Of a DNA stretch of 42,366 nt, positions 3,931 to 30,732 are shown one piece after another (position 1 is the stretch's first letter; each line of letters starts with the position of its first letter). The DNA comes from a virus, in the IMG/VR virus record IMGVR_UViG_3300023276_000379, positions 1 through 42,366 of that record. One strand, written 5' to 3'. A program made the position numbers and the translations under genes. The notes below the pieces were generated by a model. The model saw only the letters and a program-made list of their open reading frames with translations, searched no databases and was not told where the DNA came from.

Positions 3931-5073
3931 ATGGATGACATAAAATTAACCGAGAAACAGGACACAGTTCTGTTTGCTATAGCACAATGGTTTATATCAA
4001 AAGAAACCCCTTATTACAGGTTAGGTGGTGTAGCTGGATCTGGAAAAAGTGTTTTAATATCTCACCTAAATGATGCTATTAATACTATGGAACTAGTTGA
4101 TGAAGTAGATGATAGGGGTATAGGTATTATGGCTCTATCTTGGAAAGCAGCTAATGTTTTGAAAAGTAAAGGTTTACCTGCATCCTCAATACATTCAATT
4201 ATATATCATTCCCAGAAAATAGGTCCAAATGAGTATAGACAAACCATAAAATCAAAACAGGCAATGACTGCACACTATAAGTTGTTTGTTGTAGATGAAG
4301 CTTCTATGGTGAATGAACAATTGAGGGATGATTTACTTTATTTTGAGATACCTATTTTATTTGTAGGGGATAATGCACAGTTACCCCCTATAACTAACAA
4401 TATACTTGATAGGTATTTTATGCGTAATCCTGATTCTGAACTAACCACAGTACATAGAGTTGCAAATGAAAATCCTATTATTAGATTAGCTACTCATATT
4501 AGAAATGGTGGGGAATTACCTGATGTAGGTATTTATAAAGATAAGATTCAAGTAATACATAGGAATCAACTTACTGATGAATATTTACTTGGATCAGATA
4601 TAGTTATTTGTGGATACAACAAATCTAGAATTAAATTAAATAATATAATCAGATCACTTAAAGGAATTGATCCAACACAACAACCACAAATAAATGAAAC
4701 ACTTATGTGTACTCAAAATAGTAAACGTATAGGTATATATAATGGTGACATGTTTAATGTAGAAACACATATTAATTCAAACACTAATACTGTCAATGAG
4801 CAGTTTGAATTACACATAAGACTTAAAACCCTAACTCATGAAAATAAATGTGTACTAATCAATATGCCTGACTACTCAAATAGAGACTATGCACAAGGAG
4901 CTGTAAATATGACTTTTGGTTATGCAATTACTTGTCATAAAGCACAAGGAAGTGAGTATAAGAATGTATTGGTATTCACAAATGAAGCTATGGGTAAGAC
5001 TAAAGAAGATAAAACTAAGTGGCTTTATACAGCAATAACTAGAGCAAAGGATAAACTAATATTGGTGGTATAG
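3931..5073 (+). CDS. Dda-like SF1B DNA helicase (N4 gp37-like)
   Basis: 380 residues with a full set of superfamily 1 helicase motifs. Motif I is GGVAGSGKS (K39), motif II is VVDEAS (D122-E123), motif III is VGDNAQLPPI (145-153), motif IV region is TTVHR (R176), motif V is ITCHKAQGSEY near residue 330, and motif VI is YTAITRAKDKL close to the C-terminus. The compact size and motif spacing match the Dda/RecD2 group, which unwind 5' to 3' and serve phage replication. It is joined directly to the DNA polymerase gene (stop 5073, next ATG 5074), as in N4 where helicase and polymerase are neighbours. The ribosome-binding site is AGAGG about ten bases upstream. A second helicase domain of the same type lies inside the virion RNA polymerase of this window. 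Confidence 0.93.
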   Translation: MDDIKLTEKQDTVLFAIAQWFISKETPYYRLGGVAGSGKSVLISHLNDAINTMELVDEVDDRGIGIMALSWKAANVLKSKGLPASSIHSIIYHSQKIGPNEYRQTIKSKQAMTAHYKLFVVDEASMVNEQLRDDLLYFEIPILFVGDNAQLPPITNNILDRYFMRNPDSELTTVHRVANENPIIRLATHIRNGGELPDVGIYKDKIQVIHRNQLTDEYLLGSDIVICGYNKSRIKLNNIIRSLKGIDPTQQPQINETLMCTQNSKRIGIYNGDMFNVETHINSNTNTVNEQFELHIRLKTLTHENKCVLINMPDYSNRDYAQGAVNMTFGYAITCHKAQGSEYKNVLVFTNEAMGKTKEDKTKWLYTAITRAKDKLILVV

Positions 5074-9437: not shown

Positions 9438-9440
9438 GCT

Positions 9441-9459: not shown

Positions 9460-9511
9460 CTTACTAATTCAGACTAAAACCAAAAAGCAATACAATCACC
9501 TTGATCAAAGA

Positions 9512-9524
9512 GAAGCTCCGCTTC
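9512..9524 (-). promoter_or_regulatory. Candidate N4-type vRNAP promoter hairpin, leftward
   Basis: The minus strand reads GAAGC-GGA-GCTTC: a 5-bp stem and a 3-base loop with a central G. From memory this is identical to the hairpin core of the N4 P2 early promoter recognised by the virion RNA polymerase. The surrounding AATCAC (9494-9499) and GTGATT (9530-9535) could form an outer stem. If functional, transcription would start about a dozen bases to the left and run antisense to the small genes. No promoter activity can be proven from one copy. Confidence 0.4.
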
Positions 9525-9552
9525 CTTCTGTGATTTCTATTAAGGAAAATAT

Positions 9553-10518: not shown

Positions 10519-10531
10519 CAGGAGAATAATA

Positions 10532-10885: not shown

Positions 10886-10893
10886 GATATAGC

Positions 10894-14552: not shown

Positions 14553-14564
14553 GAGGAAATATTT

Positions 14565-15284
14565 ATGTCACTATTTGACAACTTGAAAACTGATAAATCA
14601 ATTGAAGCAGAAAAAGATACACTAGGTGGAGGAGGAGTTCTACCAACAGATGCCTATGACATGGTAATAGATATGGCTTATGTCCATATGTCCAAAGGTG
14701 GAGCTATGGCTATTGTTCTTGCTACTAAGAGCCAAGAAGGTAGAAACCTTAAACAAACTATCTATGTAAGCTCAGGTAATGCTAAAGGTAACAAAAACTA
14801 TTACATGGATAAGCAAGGAACCAAGAAGTATCTACCAGGTTTCAATATCATGAATGGTATTGTTCAATTAACCTTAGATAAAGACTTAGGTGATATTGAA
14901 CCTGAAGAACGTACTATCAGTATCTATGACTTTGATGCTAAGAAAGAGAAACCAACTAAGGCTCAAGTATTAACTGAGCTCATTGGTCAGAGAATCATTT
15001 TAGGTGTACAGGAACAGAAGGTAGACAAGAACATTAAGGATGGCAATGACAACTATGTTCCTAGTGGTGAAACTCGTATGGAAAATGAAATTGTTAAAGT
15101 ATTCCAAGCGGATACTGATCTAACAGTCGCAGAGGCTAAAGCTGGAGAAACTGAGGGCAAATTCAAAGACAAATGGGTAGAGAAGAACCAAGGTAAGGTT
15201 CGAGATAAGTCTACCAAAGATGCAAGTAAAACTGCAGGTGGAACTACTAACGATTCTAAGCCAGCTGCTTCAATATTCGGCTAA
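14565..15284 (+). CDS. Single-stranded DNA-binding protein (N4 gp45-like)
   Basis: 239 residues, placed directly after the RecA-like ATPase as in N4. The N-terminal MSLFDNLKTDKSIEAEKDTLGGGG leader, the central KQTIYVSSGNAKGNKNYYMDKQG region and the LPGFNIMNGIVQLT block match my recollection of N4-type SSBs. The C-terminal 50 residues are charged, low-complexity and end in AASIFG, a flexible tail with a hydrophobic tip as in other SSBs. In N4 this protein coats single strands during replication and also activates late transcription by host RNA polymerase, so it may link the plus-strand and minus-strand halves of this window. Good ribosome-binding site. A long inverted repeat follows at 15298-15337. 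Confidence 0.82.
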   Translation: MSLFDNLKTDKSIEAEKDTLGGGGVLPTDAYDMVIDMAYVHMSKGGAMAIVLATKSQEGRNLKQTIYVSSGNAKGNKNYYMDKQGTKKYLPGFNIMNGIVQLTLDKDLGDIEPEERTISIYDFDAKKEKPTKAQVLTELIGQRIILGVQEQKVDKNIKDGNDNYVPSGETRMENEIVKVFQADTDLTVAEAKAGETEGKFKDKWVEKNQGKVRDKSTKDASKTAGGTTNDSKPAASIFG

Positions 15285-15297
15285 TCTATTGCTGAAG

Positions 15298-15337
15298 TCT
15301 AGAAGTCGCCTTATAGCGTAAATATGGGGCTTCTAGA
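15298..15337. repeat. Inverted repeat after the SSB gene
   Basis: TCTAGAAG (15298-15305) and CTTCTAGA (15330-15337) form an 8-bp perfect stem, extendable by a G-T and a C-G pair, around a 20-base interior. It fills the gap between SSB and the resolvase gene. There is no T-run after it, so it may be an RNA processing or stabilising hairpin or a weak terminator rather than an intrinsic one. Confidence 0.5.
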
Positions 15338-15366
15338 TATACATTTGAAGTAATTGGAGGATGACA

Positions 15367-15753
15367 TTGGTATATACGATCATAGCACCATTAAGAGTAC
15401 GAAGATCAAAGAAGAAATGGTTTGTTTTAAACCTAAACCAATATAGGAATACTCACTTTCAAGTTTTGAATAAAGCTAAAAGAGAGTACAAAGCAATCTT
15501 AACTGATCAAATTAAGAAATTACCTATATTTAAGAAAATCAAACTTACATACACACTGTTCCCTAAAACTAGAAGAAAGACTGATATTGGTAATGTATTA
15601 TCCATACATCAGAAATTTGCTGAGGATAGTTTTGTTGAGAATGGTCGTATTGAAGATGATGATTACTTACATATACCTATGACTATATTTGAGATAGGGG
15701 AAGTTGATCCAATTAACCCTAGAGTAGAAATAACTATTGAGGAAATTAAATGA
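15367..15753 (+). CDS. RusA-like Holliday junction resolvase, TTG start
   Basis: 128 residues from a TTG start at 15367. The ATG at 15361 directly touches the GGAGG (15356-15360) and leaves no spacer, while TTG sits six bases from it, which is optimal; both are in frame. RusA-family features are TDIGNVLS (D73), FAEDSFV (D87), IEDDDYL (D97-D99) and the closing GEVDPINPRVEITI. The acidic residues bind the metal that cuts four-way junctions. A basic N-terminal strand region (PLRVRRSKKKW) would contact DNA. Resolvases of this class clear branched replication intermediates before packaging. It overlaps the next gene by 4 bases. Confidence 0.82.
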   Translation: MVYTIIAPLRVRRSKKKWFVLNLNQYRNTHFQVLNKAKREYKAILTDQIKKLPIFKKIKLTYTLFPKTRRKTDIGNVLSIHQKFAEDSFVENGRIEDDDYLHIPMTIFEIGEVDPINPRVEITIEEIK

Positions 15754-16013
15754 ATATAAATTTAGACGCAGAAGACATCAAAGAAGCATTAACCAACTAT
15801 GTATCAGTCCTTGGATTTGATATGTCCAATAAGCAAGTAACTGTGAATATGGTTGCAGGTAGACAAGGGAATGGATATAGAGCTGAATTAGAGATTGTTA
15901 AAGGAAACTCTAACAATGAGACTCTGAAAGTAATAAGTCCCCCTGAAGAGCCTGAAATTAGCTCTGAAGAGGAATCTGAAGAGGATGCTCAACCTAATAG
16001 ATTGTTCGGATGA
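15750..16013 (+). CDS. Small acidic protein, function unknown
   Basis: 87 residues, overlapping the resolvase gene (ATGA) with GAGGAAATT as ribosome-binding site. N-terminal 60 residues look like a small alpha/beta fold (INLDAEDIKEALTNYVSVLG...VTVNMVAGRQGNGYRAELEIV). The last 25 are strongly acidic and end PNRLFG. The same type of tip ends the SSB two genes upstream (SIFG), so both may dock to one partner; this is inference. It resembles small proteins placed after resolvase or SSB genes in other phages, but I cannot name the family. Confidence 0.65.
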   Translation: MNINLDAEDIKEALTNYVSVLGFDMSNKQVTVNMVAGRQGNGYRAELEIVKGNSNNETLKVISPPEEPEISSEEESEEDAQPNRLFG

Positions 16014-16171
16014 TTGAAAAGATTAAACATGGAGTAATTGCTGTAATCCTAGCACCATTAATAATAGGTGCTTGGATGATTATCCCATTAATCTTGACAA
16101 TCTTACCTGTAATATTCCTGACTTTAGTCATATATTTTATATTACAGGAAGAATATTCCAAATCTAAGTAA
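16010..16171 (+). CDS. 53-residue membrane protein at the end of the rightward operon
   Basis: A short ORF with ATG overlapping the previous stop by 4 bases (ATGA at 16010-16013). It begins MIEKIKHG, then has two hydrophobic stretches separated by a proline (about residues 9-27 and 30-46: VIAVILAPLIIGAWMIIPL and LTILPVIFLTLVIYFIL), and ends with the charged EEYSKSK. It is therefore probably an inner-membrane protein with one or two helices. Size and layout would allow a holin- or antiholin-like or superinfection-exclusion role, but no lysis gene is next to it and nothing proves one. Its last 8 bases overlap, tail to tail, the end of the virion RNA polymerase gene on the other strand. Confidence 0.6.
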   Translation: MIEKIKHGVIAVILAPLIIGAWMIIPLILTILPVIFLTLVIYFILQEEYSKSK

Positions 16172-19100
16172 GAACTTGGACGACTGCTGGTACAGCAGCA
16201 GTCTCCCCTAAACCAAATGGATTCTGAAAAGGTGCAGTTGGTTCTGTAACAATGTTTGAATCGAATGGAGTAGATATATCTAATCCAAGCATAGCTTCAA
16301 GCATATGTAATAGGAATACTGATGCACTCTTCTCAGTTGTCATCCTAGCTAATACTTTAAATATTCTAAGAGGATATCGAGTAAATGGTGCTAGACCCAT
16401 ATCATTAGCATATTGAATATACTTATGTGTTGGTAAAGCGTAGTTAATGAAATCTTCTCTTAAATGGCTAACTACTTGATTAGCAGGTTGCTTTTGGTTC
16501 TTAACCAGATGCTCGTATATAGCAAATCTAGCAATGAAATCACTATATTGAGTAAGCTTTAATGCGAGTTTAAACGTACTTGTATTGGCTCCCATATACA
16601 ATTGATTAGTAGCTTCTTTACCTAATTGAGGTAATTTATTTAATACAGGATCAGCCCATCTGATAAATTTACTCTTATTTGAGTGGAAGTCCTCAGTAGT
16701 ATCAATATCTTCAACAATAGTTGGAAACAGTCCTTTATCAATTAGAGGTTTAATTGGATTAAGCCGCTGTAACTCTTTGTTTGAAACAATTCTTGCTTCA
16801 ATATCTTTACGTTGTATAGTAGTAATTCCAGCTAACTGTAATTTTTTAGCATCAGATACTAACTGCCTTTCAATATTTAACCATCTATCTAAATGACGTA
16901 TACCTTCTATTTGAAGTTTAGCCATAATTTCAGGAGGGACACCATTAATTATACCAACAATAGTATTACTGAATATATTATTCATAATCACTTGAGGTAG
17001 CCTTACAACAATAGTTGTCTTAGCAAATTTTACTATTTCTTGCCAAATAGTTTCAGCTTTTTTAAGCATGGATTGTATTTTATTCCTTGGTTTATCAACT
17101 ACACTAAACTTCCTATATGCAAAGAAAATATCAACCCAAGCATCTCTGACAACAATACCACCATCACCAAACACACTAGTAGCATACCTACGCATATCTT
17201 CAGGCATTAATCTATATATCTCAGCTAATTCTGGGTCAGTAGAATCTTTGTTTATGGTTACATAGCTCTGAGGTAGTTTTAAATAATTCTTATCAAAGTC
17301 TGCTTTAAGAATATCAATAGTTTCTCTATTAAAACCTTTAGTATTAGCCTTGTCTTCCATATGAGAATACATATGCCCTAGCACATTAAATGCTCTATCA
17401 TCTCTTTTGAATAATCTTTTCTCTACAGAATTAGATATAGTATTCCTATAATCTGAGATATGACCTTTATCATCAATAGTAGGGACCATAATATTATCTT
17501 GTATAGTGGTATTACTATTAAGAGTACGTTTCATCTCACGGATAGTCTTCATCTTAGTTTTGTTGAAGTCATTAATATTTTTTAAGAAAGTAGCTACATC
17601 ATTTGCATTACCTTCTTGTAACATGGATTGACCCATACTAACTTCACTAGTTAAAGAAGTGATAGTTTTAACCCTAGTGTTTAAAGCATAGTCTTTATTA
17701 ACCATAAGAACCTTAGGTTTAGAGTTAACTCTAATCTTATTCTCTGGAAGAGAAGATTCTATAACATAACCTTCTTTTAATAATTGCTCTACATCTACTT
17801 CATCAACTACTCTAGTATCAACAAATGGGTCATTTAATTTGGCAGCATAACCCTTGTGTGTATGCGCTATTTTGTTATCAAAGTTTTTAGTTAAAGATTC
17901 TTTCTTGAAAGCATTATGCATATCAACTAAGAAAGTAAACCCATTCTGCTTAGGATTAATAGCAACCTCACTATCAATTAAATCAACTACCTGTTTATTA
18001 ACAGTTGGATTCGTTAATTGTATACCATACAAGCTTGTTAATTTATTAATTAATTCAATTGCTAGATCCATATTCTTAGGAGCAGTAATTCCTAATTGAG
18101 GAATTGTATGAGGTAATATAGCAATTGATGTTGGATTCAACATAGTGTTGTACCAATTTGCTTTACCAAAAACATTCAAATGAGCCAAAGAATTACTCTG
18201 TTTTCTGTACAAGTTATACAGGTCTTTAGAACCTAACTTACGTAATTGAATAAGGGTATCCTTGATCTCATCTCCAACTTTACTTGGATCATCAATCAAA
18301 TCTCTTAAGTCTTTAAGATTATAATGTTTACGGAATAAAGCAGAAGCATCATTCCTTATAAGTCCCTGTGTTAAAGCTTCCCAAGTATTATCTGAAACAT
18401 TTTCTGTTAACATACTATCTTTGAGATCATTACTTACAACATGACGAACAGTATCTCTAGTTTTATCTATAACACTCATAGATCTAGCAAGATGTTCAAC
18501 AATAGGTATCTCTTCTTTATCACCAAAACCAATAACTTCCTTAATTGTAGCCGCTAGGAATTTACGTCTAGATACACCCATCTTAGCTGCCATATTATTA
18601 AAAGCGTTTAAATAAGCAGAAGTAGTTATTGGATTAACAACACCAGCAACTAATGAAGCTGTATTTACATACTTATTTTTATGCACTTTAAGGCTAAAAT
18701 TAGCTAAAGGTTCACCTATCAACTTAGTAGCAACTTTACTAATAACCTTATTACCAGCATTCAAACCATTAATAAGAAACTGAGTAGACATATGAGTCTT
18801 TTGTATCTTATTTAAATCTTTAACCAAATTCAGTAATACTACATCACCTGTATGGCCCCTATTAAATCTAAGTAATAAAGCATTTACAGCAATATTAAAA
18901 TAATGTTGTAAGGTAGCTGCAAAAGATTGTTTCTTACTATCTTTAAGTAAATTAGGTCTGAAAGAAGCTAAATGTTTAATCAAGTGTTTATTAGTTAATC
19001 CATAAGCAACAAATTCATGTAAACTAATTGGCACTTGTTCAGTTTTAATTGTACCTGTATTAAGATCCATTAATTGAATTGCTTGTGTTTTCTTATTTCT

Positions 19101-22100
19101 AAACACGTAATCAAACCTATCTTTAGCAGTTTTCTCCTCAACTAATTGATCTACATATATAGGTTGATTATTTGGATCCAAATTTAAGAATATAAAGTGC
19201 TCATTACCTTCACCAAATACTTTAGATAAATGTTCAATAGATTTATCTCTTAATCTAGCAATCTTATGTACTATATTAGATTTGGTACTAGAGAGTAGTC
19301 CAGCCCTACTTATTGCATGACCAACTTCATGTGCATAGGTTTCTCTACCAGACATAGCAATAGGATTAGTACTTGTACCTTGAGTAAGAGCTACATATAT
19401 ATTATCTCCAGCAATCCTACCTTTAGTCTTATTACCTAACTCGTCTAATTGTAATGTGAAATTACCTACACTGGGCATTAATTTAGCAGCATACTCTTCT
19501 AAGAAAACTCTCAAATATGCATCATGCTCTGCAGTTTCAGATATATTATCCTTAGCTTTAATTTCATCATAGGTTTGCGTTAATGTACCTGCATTCAAAG
19601 CTACTTTAGGTAGGGACTCATCAATATCTATTTGTCCTGGAGTAGAGCCAAATTCAGCTGTAATATCATTAACCAAATCCTCAGGAGAAATAACATTACC
19701 AGCACTATCTATTGGCTGTCCTTCTCTATTTACTCGTTGTGTTGGTTTAGCTTGTTGAGCAATAGATCCTTTAATATCATCTCCTGAGAGTATGAACAGG
19801 GGATCAGCAAAATGCTGTATAGAAGTAGCTTGGTTAAGTATTTCTAATGTACCTTTTCTAGTTTCACTAGCGTAATGCTTAACAGCTTTATTTCTATTTT
19901 TAAGAAATTTATCTAATCCTGCATTACCACTACCTGCTTCTTCTATAGCTTCCTTGATATCTAGTCTAGCTTGCTCAGGAGCACTTACAGATTCATTATA
20001 TGGATCTGCATCCTGTTTAGATATAACTTCCTTAGGAAAATCAGTTAAGTATTTTCTAAGAGAAGCTTTATCAGCGGCAGATAATTTGAGAGCATTCTTA
20101 ACACTTCTATCCAATGTATTGGATACTTCTTGAGCAATAGAGTATTCAGAATTAACTTTAACAAAATTCTGTAGATAATCAGCAGTAGCTGCTTCAATTA
20201 GATTTGATCCAGCTTGTACTGCATCAAACATAGACATCACAGGTTTGCTACCAAATACTCTTGTAATAAAGGCTGAATCCATACCTTGGGTACCCCCTAC
20301 TAAAGTAGCAACTCCAGGTTCAGTAAATATTTGTTTATGTATCTGGGATGTAGCTGTACCCCCAGGTACAGTATTAAAAAATGCAATAGCTGTATATGCT
20401 GGATCATTTTCAGTATTAACTACTTTCTTAGTCTTAGAAGCAAATAAACCTTCTACACGTCCTTCATCTAGATTTGAATTAGAATCATAGAACTCAATGA
20501 TAGGTAGAAATGCTCTATATTCCTTAGACTCTAGGAAGTCTCTCATCTGTTTTACCGTAGGAATACCTTTAGATTCATTGATGAATTTTAGATATCTCCA
20601 GTTAAACATATGAGATATAAGATTAATGTTACTATTCATCATTTCTTTAAAAACCTTAGTATCTTCTAAGTATTTCTTAAGACTAGATTGAACAGTGATA
20701 CCATAAGACTTACTTAAATGAGTGTGCATCATTTTACGCACATCTTCAGGTAACTTTGTTTGTTTGATATTGAAACCAGTTTCTAATGTTTTAACAGGTC
20801 TGTTATTACCTATATTATGCTCCTTAATAATTTTATTGATAATGCTTTGGGTAGGTGAATCTTCACCTCCAACTTCTTCAGCTAGTTTACTTTCAATATC
20901 CGTAACCAAAGCAGTAATAATAGTATCAACAGCTTTAGCTATAGCAGCACCATAGTTAGTAGTCATGGTTGGTGATTTAGCTATCTCCCTAGCTTCTCTA
21001 GTTATCTTACCTGTTAGATCCTTAAATTCAGGTACAAAATTGTTGTATGTAGTCATAAATTCAAATGGTTTAACTAAATCATTATTAAATTCAAAATTTT
21101 CACCTTTAAGCTCTGTATAAATCCGTTTAACCATATTGGTTAAATCAACTTTAATAGCCTTAAATCCTTTACTATCTCCATTTCTTAAAGCTTCATTCAT
21201 GTATTCTGCTAAAGAACTTAGTTCAGTAATATCGTTTGCAGCAGCACCAATAACTTGTCCATAGTTATCTAAATTACCTGGTTTTGAACTCCAAGTAGAT
21301 AAGTTCTCACCTTCTGTAAAGAAAACTCCACCAGCCTCCAATTTAGCCTTTGTAGATTCTGTTAATACACCAGCTTGGATTAATCCAATAATAACTCCAG
21401 AAGTTACAGCATCATTCTCTTGTGAAATAGATGTAGTTACCTTACCACCAGTTTTAGCTTTAAAATAATCAACCAATTCAAGAAGAGTATCCAAAGAGTG
21501 GGACTTCTCTTCATTATTTGTGAATTTACCTATCTTAGCAAAATCAGACATAGTAGAGTCTTTATTAGTTAATTTATTAACAAGTTCCTCAACACCTTTA
21601 TCTGACATAAATTCATCAAACATTTGATTAATTACTGCAGGATCATAATTAAGTTTAACCGTACCATCTTTTTGGATCTTAGCAGATTTAATAGCATTAA
21701 CTTTCTTCTCTAAGTTTTGCCCCAATCCTTGCATAACAGCAAGTTTATATCTAATTTCTGCATGAGAATTATCACCTTTCTTAAATGTACTTAACCAATC
21801 ACTATTAAATATAGAATGTCTCTGTAGCTTATTAGCTTGATAATTAAATCCACTTCCTTGGATCATTATTCTACTGTTAGTAATAGCCATATATTTGAAG
21901 AAAAATTCAGAATCTAATCCCCTCTCTTTAACCATGTCATAGAAGGTAAAAAGATTTTCTATTTCAGTTAGGATACCTAAATTTGCACCTTCATAAGACT
22001 TACGATGCTCTAAAGGTTTATCTTCAATAGAGTACTCATATCCAAGATTAATTTTAAATAACTCAATTAATTTATTTCTACTGTGGGTTTCTAATAAATT

Positions 22101-25100
22101 AATAAAAGCTTTCTTGAATCTAAAAGGAACATTGTTAGCATATTGAACACTCTTTTGAATTCCTACAGGTAAAGAGTTACCATTTTTAAAGAATTTAGGG
22201 GCAGGAAATTGCTTATCTGAATCATCTTTAAATCTAGGAAATACTGGACTACTAGGTTTATCAGTTAAAGATCCAATAACATTGGACATAGTATCTGACT
22301 TATTCCTTGAGTCTTTCTCAGTTTTAAATATATGCTCTAATTTATTAGATGTAGCAGGTAATTCAAGTATACCTCCATTTTCTACAGATGCTCTCTGTTT
22401 AAATTCAGCTGTAGTAGTATTAAAAGTGTATTTCTGACCTTTCTTAGTTTGTGCTGCTACTTGTACAAGATCGGGTGAACTCATACGAACATATATAGTA
22501 TATGGTTCACTAGTTGGCCTATCAAAAGCAAAAGCAGGTATAGCTGTTTCTACAACTAATTTCTGTTTACCTAGGATATACAGAGCATATTGACCCAGAT
22601 TTGTTGCCATCTTGTTATCAAAGTTAGAATCTGAGCTATCAACTGCAGTAATACCAACTTCTCTAAGAATAGCTTTACCCAATTCTAAAGCGAGAGTAGT
22701 CCTAGGAACCCCAGCATAACCAAATATATTATATTGATCACTAGTAGGACTATCTTTAGTATCTGCACCTCTAGCCCTATTTACTGTTTCCTTGGTTGCA
22801 GATAAAGTAGTTTTACCCTGTGTAGTTAACCAATTCATAGAAGTAGTAGCCATAGCACTTAGGATATTACGATCCATATAACCTGACTCTACACCACCTA
22901 CATTTAACTTCTTGAAAAGTAATTGAACTGGATCTAACCTAATACTTTCTTCAGGAGTAATAAATTGATTTGTACCTAGAGAAGTATTTATAACTGGACG
23001 CATAAACTTCTCAAATTCTGAATATTTCTTTGTTTTACCCTGCTTATCTGTATAGGTACTTTCTCTCCTAGCAGTAGCAACAAATTTCTTTTCAAAAGTT
23101 ATTAAACTTTTAATTAACTCTTTCTGAGTAGCACTTGGATCTTTAAATATTTGTAAAGGATTCTTACCTAATTCTACAAATAAATTCTGCACTGTAGAAA
23201 GTAAGCTTTTACTTGAAGCTACATTATCTATAAACTCAACAGCAATCTCATTACCTTCATCATCCTTTATAATCTTAAAATCAGGTTTAGTCTTCTTAGC
23301 TGGTTTAAAGAAATTAGCTAACTTCTTGGTATATGCAGGGAAGGTAGGTCTACGATCCTTAAATTTAAATATGTTTAAATGATTACTAACCTTACCCCAT
23401 TTACCAAAATCTTCCTCCTGATTAACCAAAATATCTGATAGGTTATAAGTAACCTCACCATCTTTAGTTTTAACCTTCTTATTGGTTAATGCAACAATAC
23501 CTTCTTCATTTCGATCCAATAAAGTAAGCTTGTCATAGTCTCTAATTACATGAGTATCATCTGAAGTAGGTATAATTTCAGTTGTTGTGCTAGCAGTCTT
23601 CTTATCTTTAAAGTTTGGATCATCTCTAGGATCAACTTCTTCAGATGTCTTCCCTTTAAGTTCTACTTTCTTAGAGGCAGTATGCTTAGGAACTTCTTGT
23701 TTAAATACCGCAGAATCAAATACAGCTTTACCCTGTTTAGTGAAATCAATATCTTCTTGTTTAACAGGGACATTATCTGAATGTAAACCAACACCTTTAT
23801 TTATTACTACCAATTTAGATGTTGCTCTTGTATACGCAACATACAGAGCATTATATAATGTTTTAAGAGGAATACTTCCTGTTCTTTCTTGCTCATTGCT
23901 AACAATATTATCTTCCATAACATACACATTTCTATAGGAGGATCCCTGAGATTTATGTGTATTGATTGAATAAGCAAATTGAACATGAGGAACATTACCT
24001 TCCATCAATCTAACTAGTGGAGTTAAATTAGCTGCTTTAGCCTTACTTACCCTATCATTCCTATTTGCATTTCTTTGAATAAATTGTTGGATCCTAGAAA
24101 TATTACCGAGTAACTCATTAATAGGGTGTGTTGATTGTGGAGATGGTAAATAACTAGTTGTTTCTGTTTCAGAGATTAAGTTACGCATACTTACTTCATA
24201 AAACTTAATTGGTTTACCTGCTAAATTGGCGTTCTCACCAGAAAATATAGCTTCTTTAATCTCTGCAAAAGTACGTTTAGCATTTGTTTTAAACTTGTCA
24301 TCAGTAGCTGCTACCTGTATGGCAATGTACGCATCAAAAAATTCACCAACATTCTTTGCAGAAGCAACGCCAGTAACTTTACTCGAATCTACTAGTGTAG
24401 GTTTAGAAGTTACCTTATACTCAAAAGAATTTCCAAGACCATCTACTTTAAGTAAACCTGTCTCTACATCAACGTCATCTGTCTCTTTATTAGTGCTATA
24501 AGAAATTAGAGCATCATTCTCAACATATGCATCAATTTCTTCACTATCAGCACCATATATTGTCTTTCTGACTATTCTATTTAAGTTAGCAACAGAAGTA
24601 TCTATACTGAATTTACGCTCATTATTATAAGTAAGTATTCTAGTTGATTCAGGATTCTCTTTGAAATCAGATATAAATTGATCCAATGCACTATCAGAAC
24701 CTTTACCTAAGAATTGTACACCAGCATTCTTCTTTGGAGCAAAAACATTGAACCTATCACTAACCTTGAGTAGTAGTTTACCTGCTTTTTCTTTAAGGAA
24801 AGCCCCTGCACCTTCAGCATGGAATTCATCTAATACACTAACAAATGCATCACCAATAGGTGTAATAGGTGATCCAGTATTCTGACGCACTCTAACAACT
24901 AACTCTGCTGAATGATCATACCCTTTTTCAAAAATAACTGAGTCTTTATTTTTGACCTCAACATTTGAATTATCATCTCTTACAGGTGCAAACTGATTAG
25001 GGTCACCAATATATAACTTCTTAATATGACCTAATTTAGGGTTATTTAAAGCCTGAACTACAGCTTCATCAGCCATAGATACTTCATCAATAATTAGAAG

Positions 25101-28100
25101 CTTAACTCCATCCATTTTGTCTTCATCAATTTCAAACTTACCAGGAGATTTCATCCCTAAAAATGAATGAATAGTTCCTGCAGTTTTACCTGCACCAAGA
25201 GAAGATGTTAATACTGCTGAAGCTTTATGTGAAAGAGCTGTATAAGATATTTGATTTGATTTGATCTTTTTATCATTTAATAATTTATCAACAAATTGAT
25301 TAACTATAGTAGTTTTACCCGTACCTCCCCCACCAGTAAGTAAAAACTCTTTACTATGTCTATCATTGTAAAATTCAAGCATCTTATCAATAGCTTCTTC
25401 CTGTTGGGTATTAGCAAATGCTCCAGGAAATAGCTCGTACTTAGTACCAATGACAGGAACTAATGGATCTCTCTTCTTAACTTCATCTAAGAGAGTTTCA
25501 CCTGTAACTTCAGAACTACTTATGCCTTCTTCTCCAAAGTTACCCTCAGTATTGTTAGAGAATGATCCAGTATCTATATCACTTGATCCAAGAAAAGATT
25601 CTTCTTCTACTGGAGGAGGTGCATTACCTAAGTCAATGTCTTGTTCAGGAGTAGCTGTAGAAGCCCCATTTTGGGCCTCTAACTGACTTTCTCTTGCATC
25701 AGGATTAACTTCATCTGTTTGAATAGGGGCTTGCCTATTTAAACCAAATTTAAGTAATTCAGTACGAAAAGATTCATCACCAGTTTCACTTGCATGTCTA
25801 CTAGCCAATATCTGATTAGCTTCATTTACTGCTATAGCATTATCTGTAGATTGTTTAATAAGAGTATCAAACGATTTACCTATTGCAGTATCAAAAGTAG
25901 TACCTAACCATTTAAATGATTTAACCTTACCGTCTTCAAATTTAACTTCTTCAATTGGATCACTATTATTCGTAGTACCTTTCAAACCATCATTAAGGGT
26001 ATTGATATGTTTGAGGAAATCCTTTGGATTAACTTTACCATAACGACCTTGGTTGTAACTTTTGATTATGTTGAATACTTGAGACTTACCAACCATTTTT
26101 TGAGTAAATGTCTTTAGATTACCAAGTACTTCTTTAGCCTGTTTTATATTCTTATCGTTAATAGCCTTTTCATATTGCTTACGATAAGTATTGATACCTA
26201 TAAATTTACTGTCTTTGTTCCTAGTACCTTCAAAGACTTGTTTGGTTACTTCGTTGGATCCACTAACCTTCTTCAATTTAGCATAGGTAACTAATTTATT
26301 AATCTGTGCTTTAGTAAACTCACCTGAATCAATTAAATCTTGTATAGCATCTGCAGGAATATCATCAGATTCATCTATATTCTTCATAACTAAAGATTTA
26401 GAAGCATTCTCATTGAATTCTTTAGCAGTAGTAGCAGGATTAATAATTCCAGCAATAGCTGTAGCCAAATTCTTCTTAAGTTCAGGAGTACCTGTCTCAG
26501 GATTAAGAGCACTACGAATTAATTCAGCAGATCTTTTAAGAATATCTACTTGTTCAATAAAATCAGCCCTATTACTTGGGGTTATCTTCTTTGATTCTCT
26601 AGCTTTAATCATAGAGTCTGATACTTGTATTATCTTCTCTAATTGATCTAATTTCTCTTGAGAAACTGTTGATACTCCTTCACCTAAATCAGATATATGT
26701 TGGATAGTTTTCTTAAGATTATCTAATTCTGCATCACCAGTTGAAGTCTGAGTACCCTTAATTGAATCTTTCAATTCAGTACCAGCTTTAACCACTGTAT
26801 CCTTAGACTTTTCTAATTTAGTTTTTAATTCGGCTATCTGAGCATCTAATGCAGCTTTCTTTCCATCTTTAGTAATGAAATCCTTAGTAACCTTAGCACC
26901 TTTAAGTAATCCTTTGGCACTAGCAAGTCCAATTTTACCTGTGATCTCTCCTGACTTAACAATACCCTTTAATAGAGCCTTAGCATTCTTTGTAGTGATA
27001 GCTTTCTTAGCAACTTCTTTTGTAACTGCACCAGCAACATTAATAGGGGTTCTAGCAGTACCACCAACAGAACCAGTTCCAGCACCTAAAGCACCAGCAG
27101 TAGCTAATCTCTTCTTAGCCTCTTCAGTTGTTAAGTCTGAAAACTTCTGATTATTGGCTCCCAATATTTCAGTAGATTCTTGAATAGATTCTTGAATACT
27201 TTCAGAAATTCCTTTCTCTAAGAAACCTCCTGCAGGTCTAACTCCAGGAACCTTGGCTAATTTACCCACAGGAGCTAATCTAGAGCCCTCTGACGTGAGT
27301 TTCTTAGCAAGGTCTTGCAAAGGCTTAGATTCACCTAAAAGAATCTTAGAAGATACCTTATCTGTGAGTACATTGACTGCAGATAAATAACCAATATTCT
27401 CCGATTCACTCGGATTAGGTAATCTCTGGTGTTTACTAGTAAATTCTTCAGTAATATCATTCTGTGCTTGATTATATAGAGCAATTACATATGTAGCCCC
27501 TTTAACCCCAGATTCAGCAAGAGCTTTCATAGTACCCAATGATTTAAAGAATTCTTCTACTAATTGTACTGGCTCACTTAGAACTGCTTTACCAAGCTTC
27601 TGTGTAGTATCCAATACACCTTCACCAGAATCAAAAGCTTTACCTACAGATTCATGTAATTCTTGTGATCCAGTTGTATTATAGAAAGGAGCAATCTCTC
27701 CTACAACGAAATCACCTAATTGGTCCGCAAATTGAGTAGCAGGTCTAGTTACTGGGTTATTTAATGCATTACCAATAAGGGGGGATATACCACCTTGTAG
27801 TGGCTCCTCTTGAGCTATATTTGTAGCAGTTAACTTATCCCTAACATTCTTAGCTAGAATCTTTCTTTCTTGCACTGATAGGTTATTTTGATTATCAATC
27901 AAATACTGTTCTTCAGGGGAAGAAATCCTATTAATATTAGGATTATTCTTAATAATATTCTCAGGAGCAGATGCAACAAAGTTACCCAACTCACCAATAC
28001 CTAAAGCAGTACCCCCTAGGATATTAAGAGCTTTACCTAAAGGATTATTCTGTGAGAACTCATCAGACAAGATTGCATTAGAGTCACTGAATTTAGCTAT

Positions 28101-28238
28101 ACCTTGAGATATATTACTATTTGGTAATGGAGGAGCAATTAAACCAAAATCGAGTTTCTTATTGGAAATAGCATTAGCAACAGACTCAACTTTACTATCC
28201 AACTTAGCTTTAGGAAAATTGAATTCAAAATTTGGCAT
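16164..28238 (-). CDS. Giant virion RNA polymerase with helicase and peptidase-like domains (N4 gp50-like)
   Basis: 4,024 residues; injected, single-subunit early-transcription enzyme. The RNA polymerase core (about 1850-2760) aligns to N4 mini-vRNAP: TNSR (R2123, replacing TxxGR) before GFNYQANKLQR; motif A ENDAVTSG (D2276); motif B REIAKSPTMTTNYGA (R2417, K2421, Y2429); motif C SMFDAVQAG (D2672). Motif B and A-to-C spacing agree with N4 (396 residues here, 392 in N4 by memory). Ahead of it lies a complete SF1 helicase: TGGGGTGKTT (K975), LLIIDEVSM (D1051-E1052), YIGDPNQFAPV, INTHKSQGSSY (H1428), YVAYTRATSKL (R1471). After it, YAHEVGHAIS (H2970, E2971, H2974) with SLHEFVAYG (E3075) resembles a zinc peptidase. 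Both ends lack recognised domains; the N-terminus is Gly/Ala/Asn rich like other ejected proteins. AAAGGA precedes the ATG. It is longer than N4's about 3,500 residues, mostly by the helicase segment. Confidence 0.93.
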   Translation of the reverse strand: MPNFEFNFPKAKLDSKVESVANAISNKKLDFGLIAPPLPNSNISQGIAKFSDSNAILSDEFSQNNPLGKALNILGGTALGIGELGNFVASAPENIIKNNPNINRISSPEEQYLIDNQNNLSVQERKILAKNVRDKLTATNIAQEEPLQGGISPLIGNALNNPVTRPATQFADQLGDFVVGEIAPFYNTTGSQELHESVGKAFDSGEGVLDTTQKLGKAVLSEPVQLVEEFFKSLGTMKALAESGVKGATYVIALYNQAQNDITEEFTSKHQRLPNPSESENIGYLSAVNVLTDKVSSKILLGESKPLQDLAKKLTSEGSRLAPVGKLAKVPGVRPAGGFLEKGISESIQESIQESTEILGANNQKFSDLTTEEAKKRLATAGALGAGTGSVGGTARTPINVAGAVTKEVAKKAITTKNAKALLKGIVKSGEITGKIGLASAKGLLKGAKVTKDFITKDGKKAALDAQIAELKTKLEKSKDTVVKAGTELKDSIKGTQTSTGDAELDNLKKTIQHISDLGEGVSTVSQEKLDQLEKIIQVSDSMIKARESKKITPSNRADFIEQVDILKRSAELIRSALNPETGTPELKKNLATAIAGIINPATTAKEFNENASKSLVMKNIDESDDIPADAIQDLIDSGEFTKAQINKLVTYAKLKKVSGSNEVTKQVFEGTRNKDSKFIGINTYRKQYEKAINDKNIKQAKEVLGNLKTFTQKMVGKSQVFNIIKSYNQGRYGKVNPKDFLKHINTLNDGLKGTTNNSDPIEEVKFEDGKVKSFKWLGTTFDTAIGKSFDTLIKQSTDNAIAVNEANQILASRHASETGDESFRTELLKFGLNRQAPIQTDEVNPDARESQLEAQNGASTATPEQDIDLGNAPPPVEEESFLGSSDIDTGSFSNNTEGNFGEEGISSSEVTGETLLDEVKKRDPLVPVIGTKYELFPGAFANTQQEEAIDKMLEFYNDRHSKEFLLTGGGGTGKTTIVNQFVDKLLNDKKIKSNQISYTALSHKASAVLTSSLGAGKTAGTIHSFLGMKSPGKFEIDEDKMDGVKLLIIDEVSMADEAVVQALNNPKLGHIKKLYIGDPNQFAPVRDDNSNVEVKNKDSVIFEKGYDHSAELVVRVRQNTGSPITPIGDAFVSVLDEFHAEGAGAFLKEKAGKLLLKVSDRFNVFAPKKNAGVQFLGKGSDSALDQFISDFKENPESTRILTYNNERKFSIDTSVANLNRIVRKTIYGADSEEIDAYVENDALISYSTNKETDDVDVETGLLKVDGLGNSFEYKVTSKPTLVDSSKVTGVASAKNVGEFFDAYIAIQVAATDDKFKTNAKRTFAEIKEAIFSGENANLAGKPIKFYEVSMRNLISETETTSYLPSPQSTHPINELLGNISRIQQFIQRNANRNDRVSKAKAANLTPLVRLMEGNVPHVQFAYSINTHKSQGSSYRNVYVMEDNIVSNEQERTGSIPLKTLYNALYVAYTRATSKLVVINKGVGLHSDNVPVKQEDIDFTKQGKAVFDSAVFKQEVPKHTASKKVELKGKTSEEVDPRDDPNFKDKKTASTTTEIIPTSDDTHVIRDYDKLTLLDRNEEGIVALTNKKVKTKDGEVTYNLSDILVNQEEDFGKWGKVSNHLNIFKFKDRRPTFPAYTKKLANFFKPAKKTKPDFKIIKDDEGNEIAVEFIDNVASSKSLLSTVQNLFVELGKNPLQIFKDPSATQKELIKSLITFEKKFVATARRESTYTDKQGKTKKYSEFEKFMRPVINTSLGTNQFITPEESIRLDPVQLLFKKLNVGGVESGYMDRNILSAMATTSMNWLTTQGKTTLSATKETVNRARGADTKDSPTSDQYNIFGYAGVPRTTLALELGKAILREVGITAVDSSDSNFDNKMATNLGQYALYILGKQKLVVETAIPAFAFDRPTSEPYTIYVRMSSPDLVQVAAQTKKGQKYTFNTTTAEFKQRASVENGGILELPATSNKLEHIFKTEKDSRNKSDTMSNVIGSLTDKPSSPVFPRFKDDSDKQFPAPKFFKNGNSLPVGIQKSVQYANNVPFRFKKAFINLLETHSRNKLIELFKINLGYEYSIEDKPLEHRKSYEGANLGILTEIENLFTFYDMVKERGLDSEFFFKYMAITNSRIMIQGSGFNYQANKLQRHSIFNSDWLSTFKKGDNSHAEIRYKLAVMQGLGQNLEKKVNAIKSAKIQKDGTVKLNYDPAVINQMFDEFMSDKGVEELVNKLTNKDSTMSDFAKIGKFTNNEEKSHSLDTLLELVDYFKAKTGGKVTTSISQENDAVTSGVIIGLIQAGVLTESTKAKLEAGGVFFTEGENLSTWSSKPGNLDNYGQVIGAAANDITELSSLAEYMNEALRNGDSKGFKAIKVDLTNMVKRIYTELKGENFEFNNDLVKPFEFMTTYNNFVPEFKDLTGKITREAREIAKSPTMTTNYGAAIAKAVDTIITALVTDIESKLAEEVGGEDSPTQSIINKIIKEHNIGNNRPVKTLETGFNIKQTKLPEDVRKMMHTHLSKSYGITVQSSLKKYLEDTKVFKEMMNSNINLISHMFNWRYLKFINESKGIPTVKQMRDFLESKEYRAFLPIIEFYDSNSNLDEGRVEGLFASKTKKVVNTENDPAYTAIAFFNTVPGGTATSQIHKQIFTEPGVATLVGGTQGMDSAFITRVFGSKPVMSMFDAVQAGSNLIEAATADYLQNFVKVNSEYSIAQEVSNTLDRSVKNALKLSAADKASLRKYLTDFPKEVISKQDADPYNESVSAPEQARLDIKEAIEEAGSGNAGLDKFLKNRNKAVKHYASETRKGTLEILNQATSIQHFADPLFILSGDDIKGSIAQQAKPTQRVNREGQPIDSAGNVISPEDLVNDITAEFGSTPGQIDIDESLPKVALNAGTLTQTYDEIKAKDNISETAEHDAYLRVFLEEYAAKLMPSVGNFTLQLDELGNKTKGRIAGDNIYVALTQGTSTNPIAMSGRETYAHEVGHAISRAGLLSSTKSNIVHKIARLRDKSIEHLSKVFGEGNEHFIFLNLDPNNQPIYVDQLVEEKTAKDRFDYVFRNKKTQAIQLMDLNTGTIKTEQVPISLHEFVAYGLTNKHLIKHLASFRPNLLKDSKKQSFAATLQHYFNIAVNALLLRFNRGHTGDVVLLNLVKDLNKIQKTHMSTQFLINGLNAGNKVISKVATKLIGEPLANFSLKVHKNKYVNTASLVAGVVNPITTSAYLNAFNNMAAKMGVSRRKFLAATIKEVIGFGDKEEIPIVEHLARSMSVIDKTRDTVRHVVSNDLKDSMLTENVSDNTWEALTQGLIRNDASALFRKHYNLKDLRDLIDDPSKVGDEIKDTLIQLRKLGSKDLYNLYRKQSNSLAHLNVFGKANWYNTMLNPTSIAILPHTIPQLGITAPKNMDLAIELINKLTSLYGIQLTNPTVNKQVVDLIDSEVAINPKQNGFTFLVDMHNAFKKESLTKNFDNKIAHTHKGYAAKLNDPFVDTRVVDEVDVEQLLKEGYVIESSLPENKIRVNSKPKVLMVNKDYALNTRVKTITSLTSEVSMGQSMLQEGNANDVATFLKNINDFNKTKMKTIREMKRTLNSNTTIQDNIMVPTIDDKGHISDYRNTISNSVEKRLFKRDDRAFNVLGHMYSHMEDKANTKGFNRETIDILKADFDKNYLKLPQSYVTINKDSTDPELAEIYRLMPEDMRRYATSVFGDGGIVVRDAWVDIFFAYRKFSVVDKPRNKIQSMLKKAETIWQEIVKFAKTTIVVRLPQVIMNNIFSNTIVGIINGVPPEIMAKLQIEGIRHLDRWLNIERQLVSDAKKLQLAGITTIQRKDIEARIVSNKELQRLNPIKPLIDKGLFPTIVEDIDTTEDFHSNKSKFIRWADPVLNKLPQLGKEATNQLYMGANTSTFKLALKLTQYSDFIARFAIYEHLVKNQKQPANQVVSHLREDFINYALPTHKYIQYANDMGLAPFTRYPLRIFKVLARMTTEKSASVFLLHMLEAMLGLDISTPFDSNIVTEPTAPFQNPFGLGETAAVPAVVQVLT
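16182..16203. repeat. Hairpin near the convergence of the two operons
   Basis: GACTGCTG (16182-16189), loop GTACAG, CAGCAGTC (16196-16203): a perfect 8-bp, GC-rich stem within the last codons of the virion polymerase gene and 11 bases past the end of the last rightward gene. It has no T-run on either side. It might slow or end rightward transcripts running into the late operon, but repeated alanine and valine codons could produce it by chance. Confidence 0.35.
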
Positions 28239-28247: not shown

Positions 28248-29258
28248 TTACTTATTAAAAACAGAACCAGTCTTTTGCTTGTAATTTTGAATAATTTTCT
28301 CAAAATCAGATACAGTAAACTCATTACCAGATAGAGTATTTTCTTCTGTAGCGGTTAATAGAGCCGTATCTAATACATGCTCAGGAATACCTTGTTTTCT
28401 ATATTTCTGAACAGTATCTCTAGCTTTATTCAAATCACCAAAACCTAGATTAAAATTAAAACTATTTTTTAATCTAGTATTAACAGCATCTGCTGTAACT
28501 TTAAATTTCTCTAAAGCTGTCTGCTTTCTAACTGCCTTGCCAATAGTATACTCATCTACTGTTTGACCAGATAACTTTCTATTAGCCAATTCACGTATAT
28601 TACGAATTTGATCAGCTTTTAACCCAGAACCATATTTAGCTATAAAACTATCAAAATCTTGCTTACTTTGTTTAGGATTAGTTACTTCAGTTCCCTCAAT
28701 AGCTGATAACAAATTCTGATAAGTAATATCAGTTTGAGCAGTGGCAGCTTCCCTATTAGAAGAAATAGCTTTATCAAGAATACCTCTATATATATTCTGA
28801 TCTGTGAAAGCATCATTAGTAGGTGCAGCTTTCTTTATTGCTAGAATTTCTTCATTGGTTTTACCAGCAAGACTATTACCTAGTGCGTTAGCAGCAACAG
28901 TATTCTGTTGTTGGTTTCTCAATTGACCTAATTGGAAGTCTTGAGTAATTTTATTATTAATACCAACTCCCTTAGCTTTAAAAGCAGCATCCAATGAAGC
29001 AATATCTTGTGGTTTAAGAAAACCTAAATTTTGTGCTTGATATGCTTCTTGAGCAGCAGCTAACTCTGCTTGAGTTCCTGCTTGGTTAAATTCATTCTTT
29101 AAACTCTGTACAGCATCAGCTCTTCTATTCTGACCATAGTCAGAGAGTAGCTTACCTAGAGTAGAATATGGATTACTAGCTGCTTGGCTAGCAGCAAGAT
29201 CTGATCTAGTTGTATCTCCAAAGTTAGCAGTTACAGGAGTAAATCTTAATTGAGGCAT
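28248..29258 (-). CDS. Virion protein upstream of vRNAP, probable ejected protein (N4 gp51-like by position)
   Basis: 336 residues; stop lies 9 bases before the virion polymerase start, and AAGGATAAG precedes its ATG. The protein is Gln/Asn/Ala rich and mostly helical (AAAQEAYQAQNLG, LRNQQQNTVAANALG), without membrane segments, cysteines or enzyme motifs. The composition and place fit the internal proteins that accompany the virion polymerase in N4-like particles and leave the head with DNA. The N-terminal LRFTPVTANFGDTTRSDLAASQAA region may be a head-binding segment. Function is inferred from context only. Confidence 0.7.
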   Translation of the reverse strand: MPQLRFTPVTANFGDTTRSDLAASQAASNPYSTLGKLLSDYGQNRRADAVQSLKNEFNQAGTQAELAAAQEAYQAQNLGFLKPQDIASLDAAFKAKGVGINNKITQDFQLGQLRNQQQNTVAANALGNSLAGKTNEEILAIKKAAPTNDAFTDQNIYRGILDKAISSNREAATAQTDITYQNLLSAIEGTEVTNPKQSKQDFDSFIAKYGSGLKADQIRNIRELANRKLSGQTVDEYTIGKAVRKQTALEKFKVTADAVNTRLKNSFNFNLGFGDLNKARDTVQKYRKQGIPEHVLDTALLTATEENTLSGNEFTVSDFEKIIQNYKQKTGSVFNK

Positions 29259-29268: not shown

Positions 29269-30732
29269 TTATCCTAATAAATTAGGTTTATTAATCTTTG
29301 GTGCATACTGGCTTAGAAAGTCTTGTTGTCCTTGTAAGCCTCCTGTAGTAGGAAGTAGACCTAATCTACCTGCAAGATACCTATTCTTATCAGCAACATT
29401 TCTGGCGTATGAATCGTGTTGTAAATTTATATTATTCTGAGCTTGTTGTTTCTGTAAACCGAACTTCTCTTGGTTCAGTTTATGGGCATCTCTTGCAACC
29501 TTACCTTGTTGGTATGCACCATATCCACTAAATAACTTACCAATACCTTCAATGTTATCTCCTAAAAATCCAGCACCAGATTTAAGACTATTGAATGCAC
29601 CACCGAAACCAAAGTTACCATCACCGATGCCTTTATTAGCATTTGTAGCAGCAGAATTAGTAAATAAATCACCAAATAAGGAAGAAGAACTCTGATCTCC
29701 CCCTGGATTTTGACTTGCAAACCCGTACCCGCCTAAACCTGTACCAAGTTGGTTCCTACTTGCATCTGCAATTGTACCTGTACCACCATTACTACTGTAT
29801 AAATCACTATTAGTATCAGACACAGTATTACTCCCAAATCCAAAAATATTCCCAGTAAGTGGATTTGCTCCAGATTGTGGTTTAATACCTGCACCTGCAA
29901 AAAATCCTGGAACTGCATTAGAAGTTTGTGAACTAGGTATACTTGCTACAGGTTTAGTTAAACTAGATATTTGTAATGGACCAGGATTTCGCAAATCAAA
30001 AGCACTCTCTTGTGCATTTTGTAACTCTTTTGATCTAAATAACTCTGCATTTTGCTTATTTTTTATTACAGCTTTAGGATTATATAATGTTGCATTTTTA
30101 GATTGTTCAAATCTAGCTGCATCAGCATCTAATGGATGTAATGAATTAGTATTACTGGGTATTTGAGGTAAAAAAGGAGTTACTTCAGGATTCTTTTTAA
30201 GTCGAGTAATATTATCAGTTCCTGCTTGTATACCTTGATTTACAAGTAATTGTTGTTCCGCAGGTAAATTATTTATCTTAGATATAGCTTGCACAGGATC
30301 AGTTTCATATTGTCTAATTAAAGAAGACAGTTCTCCATCAGAAGCTTGACTAACTTCAGTACTACCTGCACTAGGTGGTAATGTTGCTGTAGGTGAATTA
30401 ACTATAGGGGCACTATTAGATTTAGGAGACTGCAAAAGTTTAGGTGGATTGCTTTTATAAATTTCACCATGTATTTTAGAATATTTATTAACATCAGGGC
30501 CACTATTTATACTAAAAGAAATATCTGCTTGCTTTTTTTTAGACAAAAACTGTCGATACGGGTTAGTATTACCTGGATTAATCTGATTATGTACCATAAA
30601 TTTAATTTCATTAGCTGTTAACTGCTCAGCTTCTGGTAATGTCTTATTTTGTTTGATGTGTTCCTGAGCAACTTTCTCAACTTGAGTAGCTCTAGCCCTA
30701 TTAAGTTTTAACCTATCTTTTGTAGCAGACAT
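29269..30732 (-). CDS. Low-complexity virion protein (N4 gp52-like by position)
   Basis: 487 residues, with GAGGTGA ahead of the ATG. The N-terminal 45 residues are charged and helical. The middle (about 120-400) is low complexity, rich in Ser, Asn, Gly and Pro with scattered NIFGFGSN, GNFGFGGAF and similar Gly-Phe units. The C-terminal 90 residues (GKLFSGYGAYQQGKVARDAHKLNQEKFGLQ...) return to a helical region with regularly spaced Gln and Asn, as in the terminal helices of phage internal core proteins. No catalytic motif. Placed in the late operon between the 776-residue protein and the ejected proteins, it is probably a virion or ejection component. Correspondence to gp52 is positional. Confidence 0.65.
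   Translation of the reverse strand: MSATKDRLKLNRARATQVEKVAQEHIKQNKTLPEAEQLTANEIKFMVHNQINPGNTNPYRQFLSKKKQADISFSINSGPDVNKYSKIHGEIYKSNPPKLLQSPKSNSAPIVNSPTATLPPSAGSTEVSQASDGELSSLIRQYETDPVQAISKINNLPAEQQLLVNQGIQAGTDNITRLKKNPEVTPFLPQIPSNTNSLHPLDADAARFEQSKNATLYNPKAVIKNKQNAELFRSKELQNAQESAFDLRNPGPLQISSLTKPVASIPSSQTSNAVPGFFAGAGIKPQSGANPLTGNIFGFGSNTVSDTNSDLYSSNGGTGTIADASRNQLGTGLGGYGFASQNPGGDQSSSSLFGDLFTNSAATNANKGIGDGNFGFGGAFNSLKSGAGFLGDNIEGIGKLFSGYGAYQQGKVARDAHKLNQEKFGLQKQQAQNNINLQHDSYARNVADKNRYLAGRLGLLPTTGGLQGQQDFLSQYAPKINKPNLLG

Follow-up and report, generated by a model that had tools for sequence, protein, structure and literature searches.

What would a helicase do inside a virion RNA polymerase (vRNAP)? 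This question is raised by IMG/VR virus record IMGVR_UViG_3300023276_000379, all 42,366 nucleotides of which were analysed here (hereafter the window), and in particular by its giant vRNAP gene, whose 4,024-amino-acid (aa) product resembles gp50 of phage N4 (Schitoviridae). A preliminary description, drawn from the sequence alone, had proposed that a complete superfamily 1 (SF1) helicase is built into this polymerase ahead of its catalytic core, and both points hold, with the helicase at residues ~930-1505 and the core at residues ~2017-2747. Here, we describe this predicted SF1B enzyme, its rarity among N4-type vRNAPs and its clustering with helicases fused to the non-homologous RNA polymerases (RNAPs) of crAss-like phages, and weigh the roles that it might play.

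Domain layout of the giant virion RNA polymerase

The open reading frame (ORF) at 16164-28238 (minus strand) is stop-free across all 4,024 aa, and its product matched both the phrog_2206 profile (E 2e-271) and the N4 vRNAP structure sequences of the PDB (E 4e-35). Within an alignment of 18 vRNAP cores comprising the window protein, N4 and 16 others (alignment A1), 14 of 14 invariant columns were retained, including the R...K.......YG helix and the catalytic aspartates, and the T7/N4-type catalytic residues of motifs A, B and C that define an N4-like vRNAP were in place. The invariant core residues comprise R2123, R2140, E2274, D2276, R2417, K2421, Y2429, D2654 and D2672. The layout is as follows.

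16164..28238, minus strand: giant vRNAP, N4 gp50-like, 4,024 aa (phrog_2206, N4 vRNAP PDB sequences, core residues)
25629..28238, minus strand: N-terminal domain (NTD), residues ~1-870, putative boundary, in the place of the N4 NTD 1-906 (injection/membrane part; PMC12633501)
25464..25718, minus strand: acidic low-hydrophobicity linker, residues ~841-925 (composition)
23724..25451, minus strand: predicted SF1B (Dda/RecD2-like) helicase domain, residues ~930-1505 (motifs, profiles, predicted fold)
23559..23738, minus strand: hydrophilic linker after the helicase, residues ~1501-1560 (15-20% hydrophobic)
19998..22190, minus strand: single-subunit RNAP catalytic core, residues ~2017-2747 (alignment A1)
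19317..19331, minus strand: zincin metallopeptidase motif HEVGH, residues 2970-2974 (HEXXH motif)
16212..18572, minus strand: C-terminal C2-like domain, residues ~3223-4009 (profile and sequence matches)

The helicase is placed between the ~870-residue NTD and the polymerase core, with a low-hydrophobicity linker on each side; residues 841-920 are 12-25% hydrophobic, with 9-11 D/E per 40 residues. Both the HEXXH zincin and the C2 domain lie C-terminal to the core, as in N4-like vRNAPs, and the C-terminal region matched N4 along with 468 phage records. N4 gp50 (PDB 9pnr/11fw) consists of an NTD (1-906), a flexible linker of ~100 residues (907-1007), the RNAP (998-2103), a zincin-containing C1 domain and a helical C2 domain (PMC12633501). 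The window vRNAP shares with it the invariant core residues, zincin, C2 domain, gene position and the presence of RNAP1 and RNAP2 elsewhere in the genome, but carries a helicase of ~575 aa in place of the flexible linker. This length is close to the 524 aa by which the window protein exceeds N4 gp50 (3,500 aa), in line with the earlier proposal that the helicase explains most of the size increase. From its sequence context, the helicase looks like one more bead threaded into the NTD-RNAP linker, in agreement with the beads-on-a-string view of ejection put forward in PMC12633501, and by analogy with N4 the whole chain would be packaged in the virion and ejected.

The window vRNAP also fits the definition of a polyvalent protein (Iyer et al. 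2017, PMC5512222), being a multidomain chain that joins a zincin to nucleic-acid enzymes, that is encoded among virion genes and that, like those proteins, would be injected. The partners of N4-type RNAPs listed by these authors are zincin, lysozyme, PBECR and ART, whereas an SF1 (UvrD-like) helicase was described only in actinomycete plasmid-type proteins (PMC5512222).

Motifs, fold and predicted activity of the helicase

All seven SF1 motif strings quoted in the preliminary description (7/7) were found in SF1 order, with K975, D1051-E1052, H1428 and R1471 exactly where it had placed them.

25308..25337, minus strand: motif I (Walker A) TGGGGTGKTT, residues 968-977, K975 (invariant in 18 giant-protein helicases)
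25209..25232, minus strand: motif Ia SHKASAVL, residues 1003-1010 (string match and alignment)
25074..25094, minus strand: motif II (Walker B) IIDEVSM, residues 1049-1055, D1051 and E1052 (invariant in 18)
24981..25010, minus strand: motif III IGDPNQFAPV, residues 1077-1086 (string match and alignment)
24879..24896, minus strand: motif IV VRVRQN, residues 1115-1120 (string match and alignment)
23928..23963, minus strand: motif V NTHKSQGSSYRN, residues 1426-1437, H1428 (alignment; UvrD_C_2 match)
23811..23843, minus strand: motif VI YVAYTRATSKL, residues 1466-1476, R1471, the arginine finger (invariant in 18)

Pfam profiles matched within residues 943-1479 (AAA_19, E 6e-19; AAA_30, E 9e-15; PIF1 and UvrD_C_2 above cut-offs), and PHROG 325, 'Dda-like helicase', spanned residues 943-1527 (E 3e-52). 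A structure search with an AlphaFold2 model of moderate confidence (pLDDT 70.6, pTM 0.74) retrieved T4 Dda (E 9e-22, TM 0.72 by target length), the nearest folds being Deep-Sea Helicase 9, T4 Dda, RecD/RecD2 and Pif1. Profiles and modelled fold thus point to membership of the Dda/RecD2/Pif1 group of SF1B. Unlike T4 Dda, RecD2 and Pif1, which share its fold and motifs but are stand-alone replication or repair proteins, those tested falling in a separate clade, the window helicase is embedded in a virion polymerase and bears an N-terminal KYELFPG.FAN signature.

In an alignment of 18 giant-protein helicases, the catalytic residues of motifs I, II, III, V and VI were invariant or nearly so, and the motif loss among relatives that the preliminary description had named as a sign of a non-functional fold was not seen. 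Conservation pointed the same way when the window vRNAP was compared with that of a related metagenomic contig, L033: helicase blocks were 35-41% identical (one variable block, 25%) against 14-36% elsewhere (~20-31% in the aligned NTD), making the helicase the best-conserved region of the vRNAP between the two. Because the catalytic residues are invariant, conservation is high and the fold matches, we predict a working SF1B enzyme, for which ATPase and unwinding activity and 5'-3' polarity would be expected from its family. The diverged loops of the window helicase and its long insert at ~1300-1400, seen in the 18-sequence alignment, would suit a decayed or purely structural fold, a bead without ATPase function; catalytic residues invariant in 18/18 and the highest conservation in the protein speak against this reading, which we consider very improbable.

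Occurrence among N4-type polymerases

The sample of isolate vRNAPs comprised 21 complete ORFs family-wide (3,022-4,093 aa), including those of N4, LUZ7, EcP1, nACB1 and Roseovarius, Rhizobium and Vibrio phages, plus the frameshifted AD45-P4 gene. No SF1 Walker A was found in any of them, bar a chance P-loop-like string in the At2 core, and a helicase hidden Markov model (HMM) had no match to any isolate vRNAP at E<=10, and the fusion is absent from the type phage, in keeping with the preliminary description. When three fused helicases were searched by tblastn against 50,697 phage records, no annotated N4-type vRNAP was among the matches listed. The vRNAP of Vibrio phage 1.261.O (L025 676-12957), at 4,093 aa, is longer than that of the window and is without the helicase.

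Metagenomic relatives were gathered with a portal alignment, the vRNAP-core alignment being too diverged for a collection scan. Thirty records had close portals, 19 of them with a vRNAP core match and 13 with vRNAP frames above 3,100 aa; the helicase was present in just one of these 13 long frames (G021). Together with the lack of any isolate match, this rules out a widespread but overlooked domain of N4-like vRNAPs.

Mapping the carriers, as the preliminary description had advised, therefore revealed a rare domain, with three further N4-type examples: G021 and two contigs, L033 and L043, found by a helicase-alignment scan combined with a polymerase-core HMM. L033 (75.5 kb) encodes a 4,248-aa vRNAP with the helicase at the same place as in the window, with portal, primase and capsid proteins sharing 44-56% identity with those of the window. 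In L043 (90.8 kb), a 2,821-aa protein contains an N4-type core and then the helicase, and a zincin together with some of the C-terminal region is encoded by the next gene, while the 4,636-aa frame of G021 runs in the order core, extra HEXXH, helicase, zincin and C2. Helicase-bearing N4-type vRNAPs therefore have two layouts, with the helicase N-terminal (window, L033) or C-terminal (L043, G021) to the core. An extra HEXXH adjoins the helicase in L033 (residue 1640), L043 (residue 2076) and G021 (L155; frame residue 2748), and is missing from the window protein. The extra-HEXXH segments of L033 and G021 match each other (E 3e-6), and helicase and additional zincin may move together.

Kinship with helicases on crAss-like virion polymerases

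The other giant-protein helicases detected were in giant virion proteins of crAss-like phages, a kinship that the preliminary description missed. Regions of the L005 giant protein matched crAss-like genes annotated 'RNA polymerase' or 'RNAP catalytic subunit', and in most scored long-frame loci, including cr118_1, a D[FY]DxD RNAP catalytic motif and the helicase share one ORF (loci scored were those other than L035, L037, L039, L041, L045, L047 and L048); in L049 the motif lies in the ORF preceding the helicase ORF. The crAss-like RNAP is a two-barrel enzyme (PMC7886860), non-homologous to the single-subunit RNAP of N4, and virions of crAss001 carry the RNAP-associated proteins as cargo (PMC10172136). 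Like the window protein, the crAss-like giants (e.g. cr118_1 gp14) carry the same helicase family in cis with an injected RNAP, many with HEXXH, but their RNAP is of the two-barrel DxDxD and not the T7/N4 type, and their helicase follows the RNAP motif.

One clade united the fused helicases of N4-type and crAss-like phages in both trees (support 99/95 and 100/97), with the cr118_1 helicase outside it. Most fused helicases carry an unusual KYE[LI]FPG N-terminal signature, a frequency to be read knowing that this string, present in the seeding window protein, was in the search pattern and biased the set towards it. Since the fused helicases cluster though the RNAPs are non-homologous, the same module appears to have been joined to two unrelated injected polymerases. 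As previously pointed out, the window also encodes a second helicase.

3931..5073, plus strand: stand-alone Dda-like helicase, 380 aa (phrog_325, E 1.5e-86; different clade in trees)

This protein and the stand-alone Dda proteins of N4-type phages, T4 and crAssphage fell outside the fused clade in both trees, and the fused helicase as a relocated replicative helicase was rejected, again as first proposed. Within the fused clade, helicases paired by layout, window with L033 (99/98) and L043 with G021 (100/99), while the polymerase-core tree paired L033 with G021 (100/99) and, weakly, the window with L043. This mismatch suggests that the helicase moved independently of the polymerase, with the caveats that branches are long and that a single origin of helicase-bearing cores was neither proved nor rejected by the core tree (AU p 0.25).

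The cr118_1 gp14 protein (L063 3034-17874; 4,946 aa) combines a DFDID RNAP motif, HEXXH and a C-terminal SF1 helicase, and is annotated just 'exonuclease V'. Right after the helicase-bearing giant ORF of L034 lies a 598-aa ORF (11486-13279) with HEXXH and a Walker A-like GHPGIGKT.

The company that the helicase keeps also bears on a role outside transcription, in which a polyvalent module, perhaps released by the zincin, would strip host proteins from early DNA, defend its ends or prime repair and recombination. SF1 helicases of the Dda/RecD2/Pif1 type displace proteins, which favours such a guardian function, as does the additional HEXXH that L033, L043 and G021 carry next to the helicase domain. 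Helicases and anti-defence domains, moreover, are found combined with zincins in polyvalent proteins (PMC5512222). Against it, every member of the fused family found here belonged to a giant virion-type protein, which in most cases also included an RNAP, and a pattern-based scan of the genome collection found no cellular relatives in bacterial genomes. We rate this role as unlikely.

Integrity of the reading frame and neighbouring genes

A second contig, G001 (IMGVR_UViG_3300023112_000033), overlaps the window by 25 kb (window 1-25050) and was 100% identical where compared (window 1-1159 and 6167-25050). Its end falls inside the helicase, and vRNAP residues 1-1062 are spanned by the window contig only, which is what an assembly chimera or misjoined gene would call for. 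The complete agreement of the compared stretches and the same architecture in L033, an independent genome, counter this explanation, to which we attach almost no credence. G001 extends the window 18.3 kb leftwards into the early region (L050, G001:C1:1-19500), where homologues of N4 RNAP1 (3536-4435) and RNAP2 (4536-5525) are encoded; the combined genome thus has N4-type gene order with both polymerases present.

Also in this early region, L050 7528-7662 and 8257-8391 form a 135-nt direct repeat of 70% identity, probably duplicated genes. The DNA polymerase A gene of the window is split into ORFs 5074-6561 and 7156-8286 (phrog_17 positions 516-926 and 930-1247), with a 193-aa ORF lacking an assigned function (6575-7156) between the halves; the gene is interrupted in L033 too, at a different place (~600 nt). 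At the N4 ejection-protein gene position, window ORFs 28248-29258 and 29269-30732 had no PHROG or significant Pfam match.

Probable persistence of hairpin promoters

A control hairpin scan of N4 recovered three sites at the expected places of P1, P2 and P3. In G001, a looser loop-based scan found a TCC-loop hairpin, gggtacTCCgtaccc (L050 3484-3498), 38 nt before RNAP1, matching the N4 P3 hairpin 41 nt before gp15; this was the one strong site, the others being weaker. Over the 60.7 kb of window and G001 together, the plus strand held three copies of GCTCCGC, the core of the N4 P2 and P3 hairpins, against 0.17 expected, and the minus strand none, all three copies being intergenic.

9512..9524, plus strand: GAAGCTCCGCTTC, possible element of a hairpin promoter (suggestive; lies between genes and equals the inner 13 nt of N4 hairpin P2)

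A strict scan of the early region for exact N4 GC-TYC-GC hairpins found none in L050 or L051, a repeat search for a common early-promoter motif gave no clear candidate, and the L033 genome near RNAP1, read by eye, had no clear equivalent, just a 4-bp TCC-loop stem. The P3-like hairpin, the intergenic GCTCCGC sites and the retention of RNAP1 and RNAP2 suggest that the hairpin system probably persists and that the helicase adds to hairpin promoters, an argument drawn from one genome (window/G001) with few sites, the first of which might be a terminator.

This bears on whether the helicase is a promoter opener that stands in for host gyrase and single-stranded DNA-binding protein (SSB), unwinding or extruding early promoters without acting as a processive entry motor. 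SF1B helicases normally load on a single-stranded 5' tail, which counts against this explanation, as does the presence of the same helicase on crAss-like RNAPs, for which, to our knowledge, no hairpin promoters are known. In its favour, the helicase is tethered beside the polymerase, and N4 vRNAP cannot use native duplex DNA, its promoter activation requiring gyrase and SSB (PMC4496689). The signs that hairpins persist argue against it, the hairpin at the P3 position in the same genome weakening in particular the earlier suggestion that the helicase replaces hairpin promoters. A promoter opener seems rather unlikely to us, if slightly less so than a transcription-independent guardian. The crAss-like kinship itself speaks for a role shared by injected polymerases at large and not for one specific to N4 hairpins.

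A proposed tethered motor for entering DNA

We favour a reading, to which we give about an even chance on the basis of sequence and analogy, in which a tethered 5'-3' motor helps the polymerase to open or reel in entering DNA. The vRNAP of N4 acts at the inner membrane (PMC12633501, PMC4496689), and transcription draws the genome in (PMC4496689). An N4-like vRNAP would have acquired, in its NTD-polymerase linker, an SF1B helicase of a family otherwise found on crAss-like virion RNAP giants; the chain would, like that of N4, be packaged, ejected through the tail and refolded at the inner membrane. Held next to the polymerase by short linkers, the helicase would then most likely load on the non-template strand of a promoter or transcription bubble, on which a 5'-3' enzyme would travel in the direction of transcription. 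Driven by ATP, it might open the duplex or hold the bubble, reel DNA inward and clear roadblocks, adding to the hairpin/gyrase/SSB route and presumably coupled to transcription-driven DNA entry.

The tethered motor is favoured because the motifs are complete, the catalytic residues invariant, the predicted fold of Dda type and the stretch the best conserved in the chain; because the fused clade spans two RNAP types and the two helicase positions flank the N4-type core; and because N4 entry is transcription-driven with the vRNAP at the membrane, while RNAP1 and RNAP2 are kept and probably a P3-like hairpin too. A role serving any injected polymerase also fits the parallel fusion in crAss-like phages. 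Several points weigh on the other side. Most N4-like phages, N4 included, enter and transcribe without a helicase, so the strategy does not depend on having one; the chain may be cut by its zincin, leaving the helicase free to work at other sites, as proposed for such proteins (PMC5512222); and the 5'-3' polarity is expected by homology alone.

Implications

We found no report of this helicase-polymerase fusion in the open-access literature, and the N4 vRNAP structure preprint mentions no helicase (PMC12633501). A broader proposal, which we advance tentatively and hold to be less probable than the tethered motor itself, is that a mobile family of virion-borne SF1B helicases, moving between polymerase lineages independently and repeatedly fused to two unrelated kinds of injected RNAP, makes a cis motor-plus-polymerase machine that drives transcription-coupled genome entry.

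How N4 vRNAP acts on entering duplex DNA, and what pulls in the rest of the genome, are not fully explained. The window vRNAP is a natural N4-type enzyme with a built-in predicted ATP motor, in which wild type, Walker A mutant and deletion are directly comparable. That crAss-like phages carry a parallel fusion suggests that injected polymerases in general need a helicase at their side, and provides a second system for the same comparison.

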